DNA of 64,000 nucleotides from Chryseobacterium lathyri (lineage in GTDB: Bacteria; Bacteroidota; Bacteroidia; Flavobacteriales; Weeksellaceae): contig NZ_JAUSSF010000002.1 of assembly GCF_030812195.1 (NCBI RefSeq), positions 372,001-436,000 on the forward strand. The letters are read 5' to 3'. Position numbers and translations under genes: made by a program. Within the stretch, counting starts at the first letter, position 1. Every line of letters starts with the position of its first letter. Below are positions 42,853-46,673 of this stretch, piece after piece. The notes beneath the pieces were generated by a model that saw nothing but the letters and a program-made list of their open reading frames with translations, did no database searches and had not been told where the DNA came from.

Positions 42853-42891
42853 AAAATTAGCAAAACAATTAAAAATGTTTTGCTAATTTTG
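42853..42891 (+). terminator. Long AT-rich hairpin overlapping the next promoter
   Basis: Perfect 15-bp inverted repeat (AAAATTAGCAAAACA at 42853-42867 and its complement at 42876-42890, 8-nt loop) behind the response regulator. Its 3' end is T-rich. The last eight bases form TAATTTTG (42884-42891), a -7 box for the lipoprotein gene at 42908. Confidence 0.7.
42884..42891 (+). promoter_or_regulatory. -7 box TAATTTTG of the lipoprotein gene
   Basis: TAnnTTTG 16 nt before the ATG at 42908, embedded in the right arm of the hairpin. No TTG at the usual spacing. Confidence 0.55.
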
Positions 42892-42907: not shown

Positions 42908-43540
42908 ATGAAAAATACATTTTTAGGCATAATTGCCATTTCCTTATTAGCTGTTTCATGCAATAAAGACGAAAAGCCTACTTATTTAAAAGAAGAAGCA
43001 GGTGTTCAACAGCCTGCTGTGGCAGTTAACTCAGCTCCCCAAACTTCCCTGATAGATCAGGCAGGTGTACAGTCCAATCCAAATCCGGCTTCTATTAGTG
43101 CAGCTCCGGGAATTAAAAACCCTCCGCATGGACAGCCGGGTCACAGATGTGATATTCCGGTGGGACAGCCTCTTAATGTAAGCCCAACAGCTATACAGAC
43201 TGCTCCGGGACAAAACCCCAACAATGCCATTAAAATAGATGCCAATTCTGTGTCACAAGGAAAAGTCTCGGTCAGCAATAGCGGAAGTCAGGTCAAAACT
43301 CCTCCGGGCATGAACCCTCCCCACGGACAGCCTGGCCACAGATGTGATATTCCGGTAGGACAGCCCCTGAACAGCAAACCGGCACCAACACCAGCCCCAC
43401 AACCAGTTCAAAGCGCAGCGCAGAATGTCCCGGGACCTGTAACAGCCGCTCCGCCAACAGGTGAAAAACCCAAATTGAATCCTGCCCATGGAGAGCCCTG
43501 GCACAATTGTGCATTAAAAGTTGGTGATCCTTTATCTTAA
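42908..43540 (+). CDS. Lipoprotein with three HGxPxHxC repeats
   Basis: A 210-residue outer-envelope lipoprotein; the lipobox Cys is Cys18 in LLAVSCNK. After a Pro/Ala/Gln-rich disordered part come three copies of a 20-residue unit at 71-90, 136-155 and 191-210. The first two begin NPPHGQPGHRCDIPVGQPL and are nearly identical; the last is NPAHGEPWHNCALKVGDPL. Each contains His-x4-His-x-Cys (74/79/81; 139/144/146; 194/199/201), which looks like a metal-binding ligand set. It heads a row with a Cys-rich secreted protein and an HMA-TonB receptor, so a role in surface copper handling is inferred. I know of no named function. The start is ATG 42908; an in-frame TTG two codons earlier is not favoured. 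Confidence 0.82.
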   Translation: MKNTFLGIIAISLLAVSCNKDEKPTYLKEEAGVQQPAVAVNSAPQTSLIDQAGVQSNPNPASISAAPGIKNPPHGQPGHRCDIPVGQPLNVSPTAIQTAPGQNPNNAIKIDANSVSQGKVSVSNSGSQVKTPPGMNPPHGQPGHRCDIPVGQPLNSKPAPTPAPQPVQSAAQNVPGPVTAAPPTGEKPKLNPAHGEPWHNCALKVGDPLS

Positions 43541-43553
43541 TTTTGTATTTTTG
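43521..43553 (+). promoter_or_regulatory. Promoter of the Cys-rich protein gene (TTG-N22-TATTTTTG)
   Basis: TTG at 43521-43523 within the end of the lipoprotein gene, -7 box at 43546-43553, start codon only 5 nt further. Transcription would begin at or close to the start codon. Confidence 0.6.
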
Positions 43554-43558
43554 CAGAG

Positions 43559-43921
43559 ATGAAGCTGTTTCACATTCTTGCAGTCATTTTTTGTTTAGGA
43601 ATTTTTTTAGTTCCTAAAGACAGCTTTTACTCTCAATCGATGCAAGATACCTGCTGTAAAGCCAAGTCTGAGCAGAGCGACGACTGCTGCAAAAATCACA
43701 CTTCAGAAGATAGTAAGGACAACACAACAAAATCTTCATGTAATGACGATTGCTGTTCAACGTGCGTTGCATGCTATACTTATATAGAAACTCCGTTTTC
43801 AAAGAATTTACATTTTGAGCTGTCTTATTACAAAGCGAATAAGAATCCACAGTTCCAATATTCACCCCCTCATTTATCAGACCGTTTAAAAGAGATCTGG
43901 CAACCTCCTAAACTAGGTTAA
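43559..43921 (+). CDS. Small secreted Cys-rich protein
   Basis: A 120-residue protein with a hydrophobic N-terminal signal (MKLFHILAVIFCLGIFLVPK). The mature part has nine cysteines in a cluster: Cys32/33, 43/44, 61, 65/66, 69 and 72, mostly as CC pairs, in a Lys/Asp/Ser-rich context. It ends with a Pro-rich, aromatic tail (QYSPPHLSDRLKEIWQPPK). Proteins of this kind with CC and PP motifs are found beside metal-related TonB receptors in Bacteroidota; a role as periplasmic metal carrier for the neighbouring receptor is inference. It begins 18 nt behind the lipoprotein gene. Confidence 0.78.
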   Translation: MKLFHILAVIFCLGIFLVPKDSFYSQSMQDTCCKAKSEQSDDCCKNHTSEDSKDNTTKSSCNDDCCSTCVACYTYIETPFSKNLHFELSYYKANKNPQFQYSPPHLSDRLKEIWQPPKLG

Positions 43922-43935
43922 TTATCCAACTGATC

Positions 43936-43965
43936 GTCCGTTAAATATTTTAATGGACAGTTTTT
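43936..43965 (+). terminator. Hairpin between Cys-rich gene and HMA receptor
   Basis: 10-bp stem GTCCGTTAAA / TTTAATGGAC (one G-T pair) with loop TAT, then AGTTTTT. It would act as a partial terminator or attenuator inside the metal locus. Confidence 0.6.
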
Positions 43966-43988
43966 AATTAATCTAAATTTTAAAACAA

Positions 43989-46673
43989 ATGAAATTATAT
44001 ATTTCCAAGTTTATTCTTGGGCTATTGATCCTGTCTGTACAATTTATATCAGCACAAAACCTTTTAAAAAGCCAGTTTAAAGTCAAAGGAAACTGCGAAA
44101 TGTGCCAATCAAGAATAGAAGAAGCAGCCAAAAAAGCAGGTGCTAAATCCGCTGTTTACTCCATTGATCTGCAGATTTTAACCCTGGAAACAGACCGCAA
44201 AGTTTCCACAGACGAAATTTTAAAGAAAGTTGCCGATGCAGGCCATGACAATGAAAAGTTCAAATCACCCGATGATACTTATAAAGGTCTTCCGGGGTGC
44301 TGTCATTACGAAAGGGATCTTCAGCCTTCTCCTACAGAAGCTCAAGAGCATCACACTAAAAAAGAAAATGAGTTTTATGTAAAAGGAAATTGCGGCTCAT
44401 GCAAATCCAGAATCGAGAAAGCCGCAAAAACAGCTGGTGCCGATTCCGCAGAATGGAGCGCAGAAAAGCAGACAGTCATTTTAAATTTTGACCCTTCGAA
44501 AACATCATCAGATAAGGTTTTAAAAGCTATTGCCGATGCCGGTCATGACAATGAAAAATACAAGACATCTGATGCTGTTTACAAGAACCTTCCGGGATGT
44601 TGCCTGTACGACAGAGATATTCCTTTTGGAGATGCCAATCCAAAGGTGCATTTCGAGGAAGAGGCAAAACATGATGACCACAAAGATCATGAACCTGCTC
44701 CTACTGAAAGCCATGAGCAGCCCGGGAAAAATATTGAAGGCGTTACCATTACCGGTTCAAAAGCAGCGACTGCATTAAGCAAAAAGGAAGCAGGCCTTGT
44801 TTTTAATATTGATAAGAAAGAATTATTGAAAGCAGCTTGCTGTAACCTCTCCGAAAGCTTTGAAACCAATGCAACCGTAGATGTTTCATTCAGCAATGCC
44901 GTTACGGGAACCAAACAGCTGAAAATGCTCGGCCTGGATCAAAAATACACAAGTTTAACGAAGGAACTTCTTCCGGAGATCAGAGGATTAGCCTCGGCTT
45001 ATGGGCTGAATTTCATTCCCGGTCGATGGATCGAAAGCATTCAGCTGACAAAAGGCGGCAGTACAGTAACAAACGGTTACGAAAGTATCACAGGGCAGAT
45101 TAATACTGAACTTCTGAAAAATGCCAAGGAACCAGAAACTTCTTTGAATATTTTCGCTGATTTTAACGGAAGAGCTGAAGCCAATATCACCAGTGTCTCT
45201 CCTATCAATGAAAAATGGTCACAGACATTCTTATTGCACGGAAACGGAACTTTCGGAGATACGGATATGAATGATGATACTTTCTTGGACAGACCGAAAG
45301 GAACGCAGATCAATGCAGCCTATCTCCTTAATTATAACGACTTGGAAAAGTCAGGATTCGGGTCTCATTTCGGAATCAATTTTATCCGGGATGAGAGAAC
45401 AGCCGGACAGGTAGGCTTCGATAAGAAACTGGGGCAGGATAAACAGCCTGCTTACGGTGTAGGCATTGATATTTCAAGATTCCAGGTTTGGAATAAAACA
45501 GGATATGTTTTTAAAGGAAAACCTTACCAGAGCTTAGGCTGGATGAACCAGTATGTGTACCATCAGCAGGACAGCTTTTTCGGACTGAGAAATTATGCCG
45601 GAAAGCAGCATACTTATTATTCAAATTTAATCTTTGAAAGCATTATCGGGAATACGAATCATAAGTATAAGGCCGGAGCGAGCTTTTTGTATGACGGATA
45701 TGAGGAAACTTATCTAAAGGACGATATGAAAAGAAATGAAATCGTTCCCGGAATTTTTGCAGAATATACGCTGACAGGATTAAAATATACTTTGGTAGCA
45801 GGAGCCCGGGCAGATTTTCATAATCTTGCAGGAACTCAGTTTACCCCAAGAATTAATTTTAAATATGATTTTACACCTCAGACGATCTTAAGACTTTCTG
45901 CCGGAAGAGGATTCAGAACAGCTAATGTTTTTGCGGAAAACCAACAGTATTTTGCATCAAACAGAAATATTCAGATTTTGCAGAATGGCGGAAATATTTA
46001 TGGATTGAGACCTGAAATTGCATGGAACTACGGAGCCAGCTTACAGCAGGAGTTCAAGCTTTTTGGAAGGAAGTCTTCCATCGTGGCAGATTTTTTCAGG
46101 ACCGATTTCCAGGATCAGGTGCTTGTTGATCTTGACCGTTCCCCGCAACAGCTTACTTTTTATAATTTAGAAGGAAAATCTTTTGCAAATTCTTTCCAGA
46201 CGCAGTGGGATTTTACACCTTTCAAAAACTTTGACGTAAGACTTGCTTATAAATATTACGATGTTCAGGCAGATTATATTGATGGTAGAAGAACAGTTCC
46301 TTTTATGGCCAAACACAGAGGTTTTGTGAATCTTGCCTATGCAACGAATAAAAATAATAAAGGCGGATTCTGGAGTTTTGATACGACCCTGAATTGGGTA
46401 GGAAAACAGAGGCTTCCCAATACATTAAGCAACCCTGCTGAATTCCAATTGCCTGTATATTCTGATTCTTACGCTGTTTTGAATGCACAGATCTCAAGGA
46501 ATTTCAATAAAAAGATCAGAGCTTATTTAGGGGGAGAAAACCTTACGTCTTATTACCAGAAAAATGCAATTGTTGATTTCAGAAATCCTTTTGGAAATTA
46601 TTTTGATGGCGGGATGGTGTATGCTCCTATCATGAAAGCTAATTTTTATGTAGGACTGGATGTGACTTTCTAA
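43989..46673 (+). CDS. TonB-dependent receptor with two fused HMA metal-binding domains
   Basis: An 894-residue outer-membrane receptor with an unusual front. After the signal peptide (to about residue 22) come two tandem heavy-metal-associated domains, 28-105 with CEMC (Cys36, Cys39) and 127-205 with CGSC (Cys135, Cys138). Each ends in ADAGHDNEK and a LPGCC element, so the second looks like an internal duplication of the first. A His/Glu/Asp-rich linker (222-245) joins them to the TonB box/plug (GVTITGSKAA onward, with AACCNLSESFETNA, then GGSTVTNGYESITGQIN) and the barrel. HMA domains bind Cu+ or similar soft metals, so copper uptake or sensing is the likely role; the metal itself is inference. 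It follows a repeat lipoprotein and a Cys-rich protein. Confidence 0.9.
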   Translation: MKLYISKFILGLLILSVQFISAQNLLKSQFKVKGNCEMCQSRIEEAAKKAGAKSAVYSIDLQILTLETDRKVSTDEILKKVADAGHDNEKFKSPDDTYKGLPGCCHYERDLQPSPTEAQEHHTKKENEFYVKGNCGSCKSRIEKAAKTAGADSAEWSAEKQTVILNFDPSKTSSDKVLKAIADAGHDNEKYKTSDAVYKNLPGCCLYDRDIPFGDANPKVHFEEEAKHDDHKDHEPAPTESHEQPGKNIEGVTITGSKAATALSKKEAGLVFNIDKKELLKAACCNLSESFETNATVDVSFSNAVTGTKQLKMLGLDQKYTSLTKELLPEIRGLASAYGLNFIPGRWIESIQLTKGGSTVTNGYESITGQINTELLKNAKEPETSLNIFADFNGRAEANITSVSPINEKWSQTFLLHGNGTFGDTDMNDDTFLDRPKGTQINAAYLLNYNDLEKSGFGSHFGINFIRDERTAGQVGFDKKLGQDKQPAYGVGIDISRFQVWNKTGYVFKGKPYQSLGWMNQYVYHQQDSFFGLRNYAGKQHTYYSNLIFESIIGNTNHKYKAGASFLYDGYEETYLKDDMKRNEIVPGIFAEYTLTGLKYTLVAGARADFHNLAGTQFTPRINFKYDFTPQTILRLSAGRGFRTANVFAENQQYFASNRNIQILQNGGNIYGLRPEIAWNYGASLQQEFKLFGRKSSIVADFFRTDFQDQVLVDLDRSPQQLTFYNLEGKSFANSFQTQWDFTPFKNFDVRLAYKYYDVQADYIDGRRTVPFMAKHRGFVNLAYATNKNNKGGFWSFDTTLNWVGKQRLPNTLSNPAEFQLPVYSDSYAVLNAQISRNFNKKIRAYLGGENLTSYYQKNAIVDFRNPFGNYFDGGMVYAPIMKANFYVGLDVTF

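Follow-up and report, generated by a model that had tools for sequence, protein, structure and literature searches.

Analysis of a 64,000-nucleotide (nt) stretch of the Chryseobacterium lathyri genome (assembly GCF_030812195.1, contig NZ_JAUSSF010000002.1, positions 372,001 to 436,000 of the forward strand), referred to here as the window, revealed three successive plus-strand genes, encoding a lipoprotein, a small protein rich in vicinal cysteines (the CC-rich open reading frame, ORF) and a TonB-dependent receptor that begins with two HMA domains. On balance, we lean toward the explanation that they form a copper-handling outer-membrane unit combining an HMA-armed receptor with a cis-acting leader ORF. 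The genome is Chryseobacterium-like, and its nearest named relative is C. angstadtii (92% over the receptor). An initial annotation, made from the letters alone, had proposed a copper locus built around an HMA-fused TonB receptor, with the lipoprotein capturing metal at the surface and the HMA arms or the CC-rich protein accepting it in the periplasm; what it observed is confirmed, ORF calls and sequence placing the three genes as it had drawn them, and its interpretation is partly supported. The genes are as follows.

42908..43540, plus strand: lipoprotein gene with an ATG start, from the ORF call
43559..43921, plus strand: CC-rich ORF, 120 residues with 10 cysteines
43989..46673, plus strand: TonB-dependent receptor gene with N-terminal HMA arms, 894 residues

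Comparison of the receptor with domain profiles and known structures placed it in two families. The Pfam HMA profile (PF00403) matched at an E-value of 1.2e-09 with 38.8 bits, against a gathering cut-off of 24.8, which together with the CxxC motifs and a ferredoxin-like fold identifies HMA domains, and the TonB barrel profile PF00593 matched at 4.1e-26, with the Plug profile at 16.4 bits, below its cut-off of 23.9. The Pfam barrel match, the AlphaFold2 model and matches to Protein Data Bank entries at Z>30 identify a TonB-dependent receptor with a 22-strand type barrel and an N-terminal plug. The model had a mean predicted local distance difference test score (pLDDT) of 90.9 and a predicted template modeling score of 0.72, with both HMA units mostly above 90 and pLDDT below 50 in the linkers at residues 111-122 and 221-251. 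Taken alone, the HMA arms matched CopZ (Z 10.3, root mean square deviation 0.9 over 64 residues) and MerP (Z 9.9). Because the barrel and plug matched many TonB-dependent receptors about equally, among them OprC (Z ~32), BtuB1G1 and BtuB3G3, the cargo cannot be read from the fold. The receptor features are listed below.

44064..44303, plus strand: HMA arm 1 and its CC tail, receptor residues 26-105, with C36, C39, C104 and C105
44370..44603, plus strand: HMA arm 2 and its CC tail, residues 128-205, with C135, C138, C204 and C205; best Pfam HMA stretch at 134-187
44739..44756, plus strand: TonB-box-like GVTITG, residues 251-256, by inspection
44838..44843, plus strand: vicinal plug cysteines C284-C285, invariant in 77/77 sequences

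All ten receptor cysteines fall into five pairs (36/39, 104/105, 135/138, 204/205 and 284/285) that lie before residue 286, leaving the barrel without cysteine. Each HMA unit has a CxxC motif and a CC tail, and the four cysteine columns of arm 1 were invariant in 18/18 aligned sequences. Pfam and AlphaFold2 agree with the initial annotation on the two HMA domains, CEMC at 36-39 and CGSC at 135-138; its list of ligands was incomplete in that the CC tails (104/105 and 204/205) and the plug pair were overlooked. The plug pair was unchanged in the window receptor and all 76 relatives, which had been collected by a whole-protein search that made no use of the cysteine-pair motif. From its position ~33 residues after the TonB box, we infer that this pair lies on the periplasmic side.

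Receptor relatives were found in 109/120 genomes of the host's family (E 1e-60), in 198/295 genomes of a class sample (E 1e-70, plug-and-barrel query) and in 99/296 genomes of a phylum sample (E 1e-40). Among 77 receptor loci, retained after 4 of 81 with less than 28% identity had been removed, an HMA domain was fused to the receptor in 27 and encoded on the same strand within 1.3 kilobases (kb) in 34 (61/77 together), with none detected in 16; an HMA match occurred in 0/40 control windows from 40 of the same genomes. Adding 80 named loci, which are the best 80 of 583 fetched with a pattern containing ACC, so that their 80/80 for that motif is not independent evidence, gave 157 loci in which the HMA domain was fused in 58, downstream in 66, upstream in 17 and absent in 16. 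On a FastTree tree the fused or separate state requires at least three changes, with no fewer than two of them forced by starred branches. Fused rows are found in Weeksellaceae, in one group made up of Chitinophagaceae with Sphingobacteriaceae, and in a single Saprospiraceae row, the last among those flagged by the tree's long-branch warning. In evolution, HMA domain and receptor form one unit. This recurrent fusion or adjacency across Bacteroidota supports the initial proposal that metal is handed to the HMA arms, and a tethered transfer in which the plug pair passes metal to the arms is well supported as a reading of the sequences.

Several known systems share parts of this architecture. CopZ and other HMA metallochaperones have the same fold and CxxC motif; the window arms add a C-terminal CC tail and are tethered ahead of the TonB box. 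MerT and MerP, which exchange mercury by thiols, likewise pair an HMA domain with vicinal cysteines on a membrane transporter, whereas the window protein is an outer-membrane β-barrel; no mer genes were noticed in the loci read, no search having been dedicated to them. OprC of Pseudomonas is also a copper-linked TonB-dependent receptor with a plug cysteine and the same fold (PMC8610252), but its CxxxM plug motif is not found in the window receptor, where C284 and C285 are the sole cysteines of the plug and the positions four residues on are S288 and E289; moreover, the cysteine follows the TonB box by ~75 residues in OprC, and HMA arms occur in the window receptor only. An OprC-like receptor predicted for copper uptake in another member of the Bacteroidota, Bizionia argentinensis, is reported to retain CxxxM-HxM (PMC11213822). 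The copper receptor CrtA of Bordetella pertussis is reported to have no conserved cysteine and two conserved histidines; with C284-C285 invariant, the window receptor is not of the CrtA type. Among the titles listed by our literature searches, none pointed to an HMA-fused TonB receptor from Bacteroidota.

Three separate observations concern receptors and HMA domains. A DxNxDxFxD loop at residues 426-434 of the window receptor (45264-45290), resembling a calcium site, is nearly invariant (D426, D430 and D434). Elsewhere in the same genome, a second TonB receptor (L055:6896-8965, minus strand; 24% identical) carries a CSVC motif in the plug, with a thioredoxin-like gene, judged by inspection, coming after it; it is perhaps another soft-metal receptor. 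In two other loci (L089:5954-6703 and L090:9235-9969), membrane proteins that fuse an HMA domain to MauE are encoded between the leader ORF and the receptor gene.

The CC-rich ORF has an export-type N-terminus (by inspection), the motifs CSTC and CVAC at residues 66-72 and the C-terminus IWQPPKLG. Its position relative to the receptor gene is constant: every profile hit (152/152, in 152/157 loci) was 5′ of the receptor gene and shared its strand, while the HMA domain by contrast switches sides. The profiles were trained on 66 upstream ORFs, making the 80 named loci the fairer test of position. Two features flank the ORF in the window.

43544..43551, plus strand: TATTTTTG, which fits the promoter −7 element TAnnTTTG, 7 nt ahead of the CC-rich ORF's ATG; predicted from sequence
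43936..43958, plus strand: RNA hairpin followed by a short T run, in the gap between the CC-rich ORF stop and the receptor start; from a terminator-like scan

The consensus of the Bacteroidota promoter −7 element is TAnnTTTG, and it occurred in the 30 nt before 96/152 CC-rich ORFs compared to 112/1055 other called ORFs of at least 85 residues. Because this element mostly lies 4-9 nt from the called start, leaderless or near-leaderless transcripts likely begin at the CC-rich ORFs, in the window (43544-43559) as in other loci. At the other end of the ORF, a Pro-Pro within the last 30 residues was present in 54/68 CC-rich ORFs and 76/78 named loci, compared to 26/371 other small ORFs; the underlying count of 68/77 loci with a CC-rich ORF is approximate, the filter having overlooked four or more genuine ones (L070, L081, L084 and L091) and chosen at least two wrong ORFs (L095 and L119). 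The distance from the last cysteine motif to xxPP was nearly fixed, with a standard deviation (SD) of 1.3 in the 35/43 Weeksellaceae ORFs that have CxxC (median, 41 residues) and of 1.9 in 48/50 from Flavobacteriaceae, most of which carry CC instead, while the length from start to cysteine varied with an SD of 9.1 and 10.2, respectively. In the window ORF, CSTC occupies residues 66-69 and WQPP residues 114-117, three residues before the end, with 44 residues intervening (or 41 from CVAC). Across the last ten codons of 17 Chryseobacterium rows, synonymous differences were 0.329 and nonsynonymous differences 0.09, with nonsynonymous values of 0.22 to 0.73 further up; these rows were grouped by taxon, since grouping by C-terminal motif inflates C-terminal identity.

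The hairpin starts ~15 nt after the CC-rich ORF stop, in a gap of 67 nt. In 17 Chryseobacterium-type rows, an alignment that contains one genome twice, cut differently (L004 and L056), 98.3% of cells were paired, and the covariation score and the number of double-change cells were each reached by 0/500 shuffles. Because of the constant 5′ position, an own promoter-like element, a Pro-Pro C-terminus under selection, the cysteine-to-Pro-Pro ruler and the downstream hairpin, the CC-rich ORF is probably a cis-acting copper-sensing leader ORF rather than a carrier, and the idea in the initial annotation that its product accepts metal in the periplasm is not supported.

These properties recall CruR, which precedes the TonB-dependent receptor CrtA (BfrG) in B. 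pertussis and is likewise a small export-type ORF with a cysteine motif and a Pro-Pro three residues from its C-terminus (PMC9426467, PMC12914433). CruR has 45 residues between its cysteine motif and xxPP (PMC9426467), close to the 44 in the window, and CruR relatives, like the genes of the HYC_CC_PP family described below, are reported to head other copper operons, including MbnPH-like ones. The CC-rich ORF also shares the CruR position before a receptor operon, although in the window the lipoprotein gene sits 18 nt upstream of it. In contrast to the RAPP of CruR, CC-rich ORFs end in QPP, APP, SPP and other forms; the gap to the receptor is short and holds a hairpin here but measures 162 bp in Bordetella (PMC9426467); the receptor belongs to another family, with an invariant cysteine pair and HMA arms; and CusA efflux operons are among those that the leader family heads. 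The defining behavior of CruR is copper-dependent stalling with Rho termination (PMC9426467), and the window ORF may work like CruR without being filed as CruR; the string "Bacteroid" is absent from the main text of that report.

Support for copper as the metal came from the HYC_CC_PP family (NCBIfam NF047658), which matched 34/66 CC-rich ORF relatives at E 0.05. The window ORF belongs to a diverged branch below the family cut-off, its kinship resting on position and motifs. The family was found at 58 places in 40/119 genomes of the order, of which we chose 20 lying away from any known receptor gene, a selection by hand rather than at random. In 14/20, the gene directly precedes a CusA-type resistance-nodulation-division (RND) gene (five tested, all above the TIGR00914 cut-off; nine by similar N-termini), in 2/20 it precedes MbnP genes, one with an HMBD gene between, and in 1/20 it heads a run with a Cu-ATPase above the TIGR01511 cut-off; two places (L348 and L358) had no clear copper gene next to them. 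Also among the 20 is a second leader-like gene of the window's own genome, above the HYC_CC_PP cut-off (L341:1011-1391; G000:C1:557813-558148), which stands before a DUF3347 gene and a multicopper oxidase gene with HMBD (Pfam). Among these non-receptor genes the distance from cysteine to xxPP had a median of 51 and an SD of 1.5 (15/20 measurable), and Cu-ATPases above the TIGR01511 cut-off also occurred in two receptor gene runs. With related genes at the front of CusA, multicopper-oxidase and MbnP operons, the metal of the locus is likely copper, in line with the copper link that the initial annotation had drawn. A literature search for HYC_CC_PP by name found no paper. As a separate observation, some receptor and CusA operons have as a neighbor an AraC-type regulator with NMVCxRC in its N-terminal segment (L091:3483-4049, L106:6414-6980, L224, L343 and L344); these regulators are a candidate metal-sensing family.

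Alongside the gene content, HMA fold, HMA-receptor link and the leader position, spacing, C-terminal selection and hairpin that computation establishes, we propose a mechanism in which the surface lipoprotein would collect copper outside the cell through its His/Cys repeats and the receptor would move it, ionic or chelated, past the plug. C284-C285 would take the copper and pass it by thiol exchange, as between MerT and MerP, to the tethered periplasmic HMA arms. During translation of the leader, the cysteine motif would leave the ribosome about when the C-terminal Pro-Pro is decoded, and copper binding to the nascent leader could alter ribosome stalling and so decide, by analogy with CruR, whether transcription passes the hairpin into the receptor gene. 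In its widest form, that HYC_CC_PP and the diverged WQPPK branch are copper-sensing nascent peptides throughout Bacteroidota, unrelated by Pfam to CruR and heading HMA-armed receptor, CusA, multicopper-oxidase and MbnP operons, such that one ribosome switch sets both copper entry and export, the proposal is tentative, its chances falling just short of even. Little is known of how copper crosses the outer membrane; in the literature consulted here, the one Bacteroidota case is the OprC-similarity prediction for Bizionia (PMC11213822). If the explanation is correct, metallochaperone arms on the receptor itself would provide a defined hand-over path, and a leader family at the head of copper operons throughout the phylum would make a ribosome-based metal sensor of proteins so far named for their motifs alone.

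A number of results weigh against this explanation or parts of it, and four others were considered. Against NF047658, the window protein scored 17 bits (E 0.0064), below the 28-bit cut-off, which places it outside HYC_CC_PP; DUF2946, the Pfam family of CruR, matched none of the 66 CC-rich ORF relatives at E 0.05 and did not match the window protein at E 10. In other lineages, the distance from cysteine to xxPP is less strict (48 to 90 residues in 47/59 rows, most 49-57), and some relatives lack the Pro-Pro. The ORF could instead encode a true exported copper-binding protein acting in trans with the receptor and efflux pumps, as its export-type N-terminus, the 4 to 12 cysteines and typical length of 110-150 residues of the family, and gene runs common to other copper proteins would suggest. 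We consider such a protein unlikely, because a partner in trans needs no 5′ lock such as that seen in 152/152 cases while the HMA domain is mobile, because the C-terminal ten residues, rather than the cysteine region, are most conserved and stand at a near-fixed distance from the cysteines, and because CruR, likewise predicted to be exported, yielded no peptides in proteomics (PMC9426467). That the hairpin and Pro-Pro are incidental, with separate promoters and no attenuation, would fit the shortness of the gap compared to Bordetella and the two of five covariation measures that were not clearly above shuffles (double changes in 4/7 pairs, reached by 68/500 shuffles, and pair types, 255/500); given the covariation score and the enrichment of Pro-Pro in the named loci, this reading appears more doubtful still.

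With respect to cargo and purpose, the binding range of HMA and CC motifs extends to Hg, Ag, Zn and Cd, vicinal cysteine pairs are found in mercury and arsenic proteins as well, and the match of the HMA arms to MerP is almost as close as that to CopZ. One alternative, then, is that the receptor naturally carries a different soft metal, whether Hg, Ag, As, Zn or Cd. We regard this as improbable, because HYC_CC_PP runs hold Cu-ATPases, multicopper oxidase, MbnP and DUF3347. In the available text of reports on iron and zinc regulation (PMC7221216, PMC5609570, PMC11960050 and PMC10434189), no HMA receptor is named, some giving TonB receptors by locus tag alone. A stronger contender, though still the less probable reading, is that the receptor serves copper stress defense, being copper-induced and capturing or retrieving copper for sequestration or export. 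The leader family heads efflux operons too, and in part of Flavobacteriaceae receptor and efflux leaders share near-identical C-termini and a similar spacing, so that their regulatory sign could be the same; if it were, the receptor might be copper-induced, which would tell against simple nutrition. The window's own genome differs, in that the C-termini of its two leader-like ORFs are not alike. One receptor gene run (L091) contains both a Cu-ATPase and an AraC-type regulator. An association of the receptor with COX1 was absent in the class sample (8/13 COX1-negative, two of the eight from genomes less than 85% complete, vs 190/282 COX1-positive genomes have the receptor; Fisher p 0.76), and in the phylum sample the receptor occurred in 1/13 COX1-negative and 98/283 COX1-positive genomes (p 0.07); a role as dedicated supply for heme-copper oxidases was rejected for lack of this co-occurrence, and retention of the receptor in COX1-negative genomes of the class sample counts in favor of stress defense. 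Cu-ATPase and CusA genes within ~7 kb were not enriched around the receptor, at 5/77 loci vs 2/40 controls, though the queries came from the test loci, and this result also argues against stress defense. TonB-dependent receptors import, and because acquisition is the role of the copper receptors of this class characterized in print, namely OprC, CrtA and TccA (PMC8610252, PMC12914433, PMC12617631), copper uptake is slightly more likely than a stress role.

Receptors paired with surface lipoproteins are known from SusCD and BtuBG, and the window shows a similar pairing, although its lipoprotein, a small protein with repeats, falls in no Pfam family, and NCBIfam gave just a match below cut-off to the signal region. 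It has the lipobox ...LLAVSC and three H-G-x-P-(G/W)-H-x-C repeats, two of which are 59-nt DNA copies (88% identical, 195 nt from start to start), while the third (NPAHGEPWHNC) has diverged. Its mature N-terminus, C-N-K-D-E, agrees with C-X-K-(D/E)2, the optimal lipoprotein export signal in Capnocytophaga, a different consensus being given for F. johnsoniae (PMC5080379), and K-(D/E)2 was present in 26/55 distinct lipoproteins in this analysis. The lipoprotein repeat gene occurred in 45/120 genomes of the host's family, with the receptor present in 45/45, and lay within ~3.5 kb of the receptor in 36/45 (23 upstream, 13 downstream; distances worked out by hand from coordinates) and elsewhere in nine. 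In 13 genomes of a sister family with both genes, it lay more than 100 kb from the receptor or on another contig, and the neighbors at 12 such loci (11 with the gene called) included no common copper-like gene. A lipoprotein that belongs to the receptor's unit and bears a surface-export signature is supported, and capture of copper at the surface would be its presumed role.

Upstream of the lipoprotein gene lie a histidine kinase gene and then an RprY-like response regulator gene (300.9 bits, below the cut-off of 370), followed by one further feature.

42853..42890, no strand assigned: inverted repeat with 18-nt arms, ending in TAATTTTG, in the gap between the response regulator and lipoprotein genes

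A role for this repeat as a regulon operator was considered and rejected: one other place in the same genome has a different centre, and two other genera have other repeats at this position. The repeat was almost unchanged in 12 Chryseobacterium loci, even with differing flanks, and it is probably a terminator overlapping a promoter.

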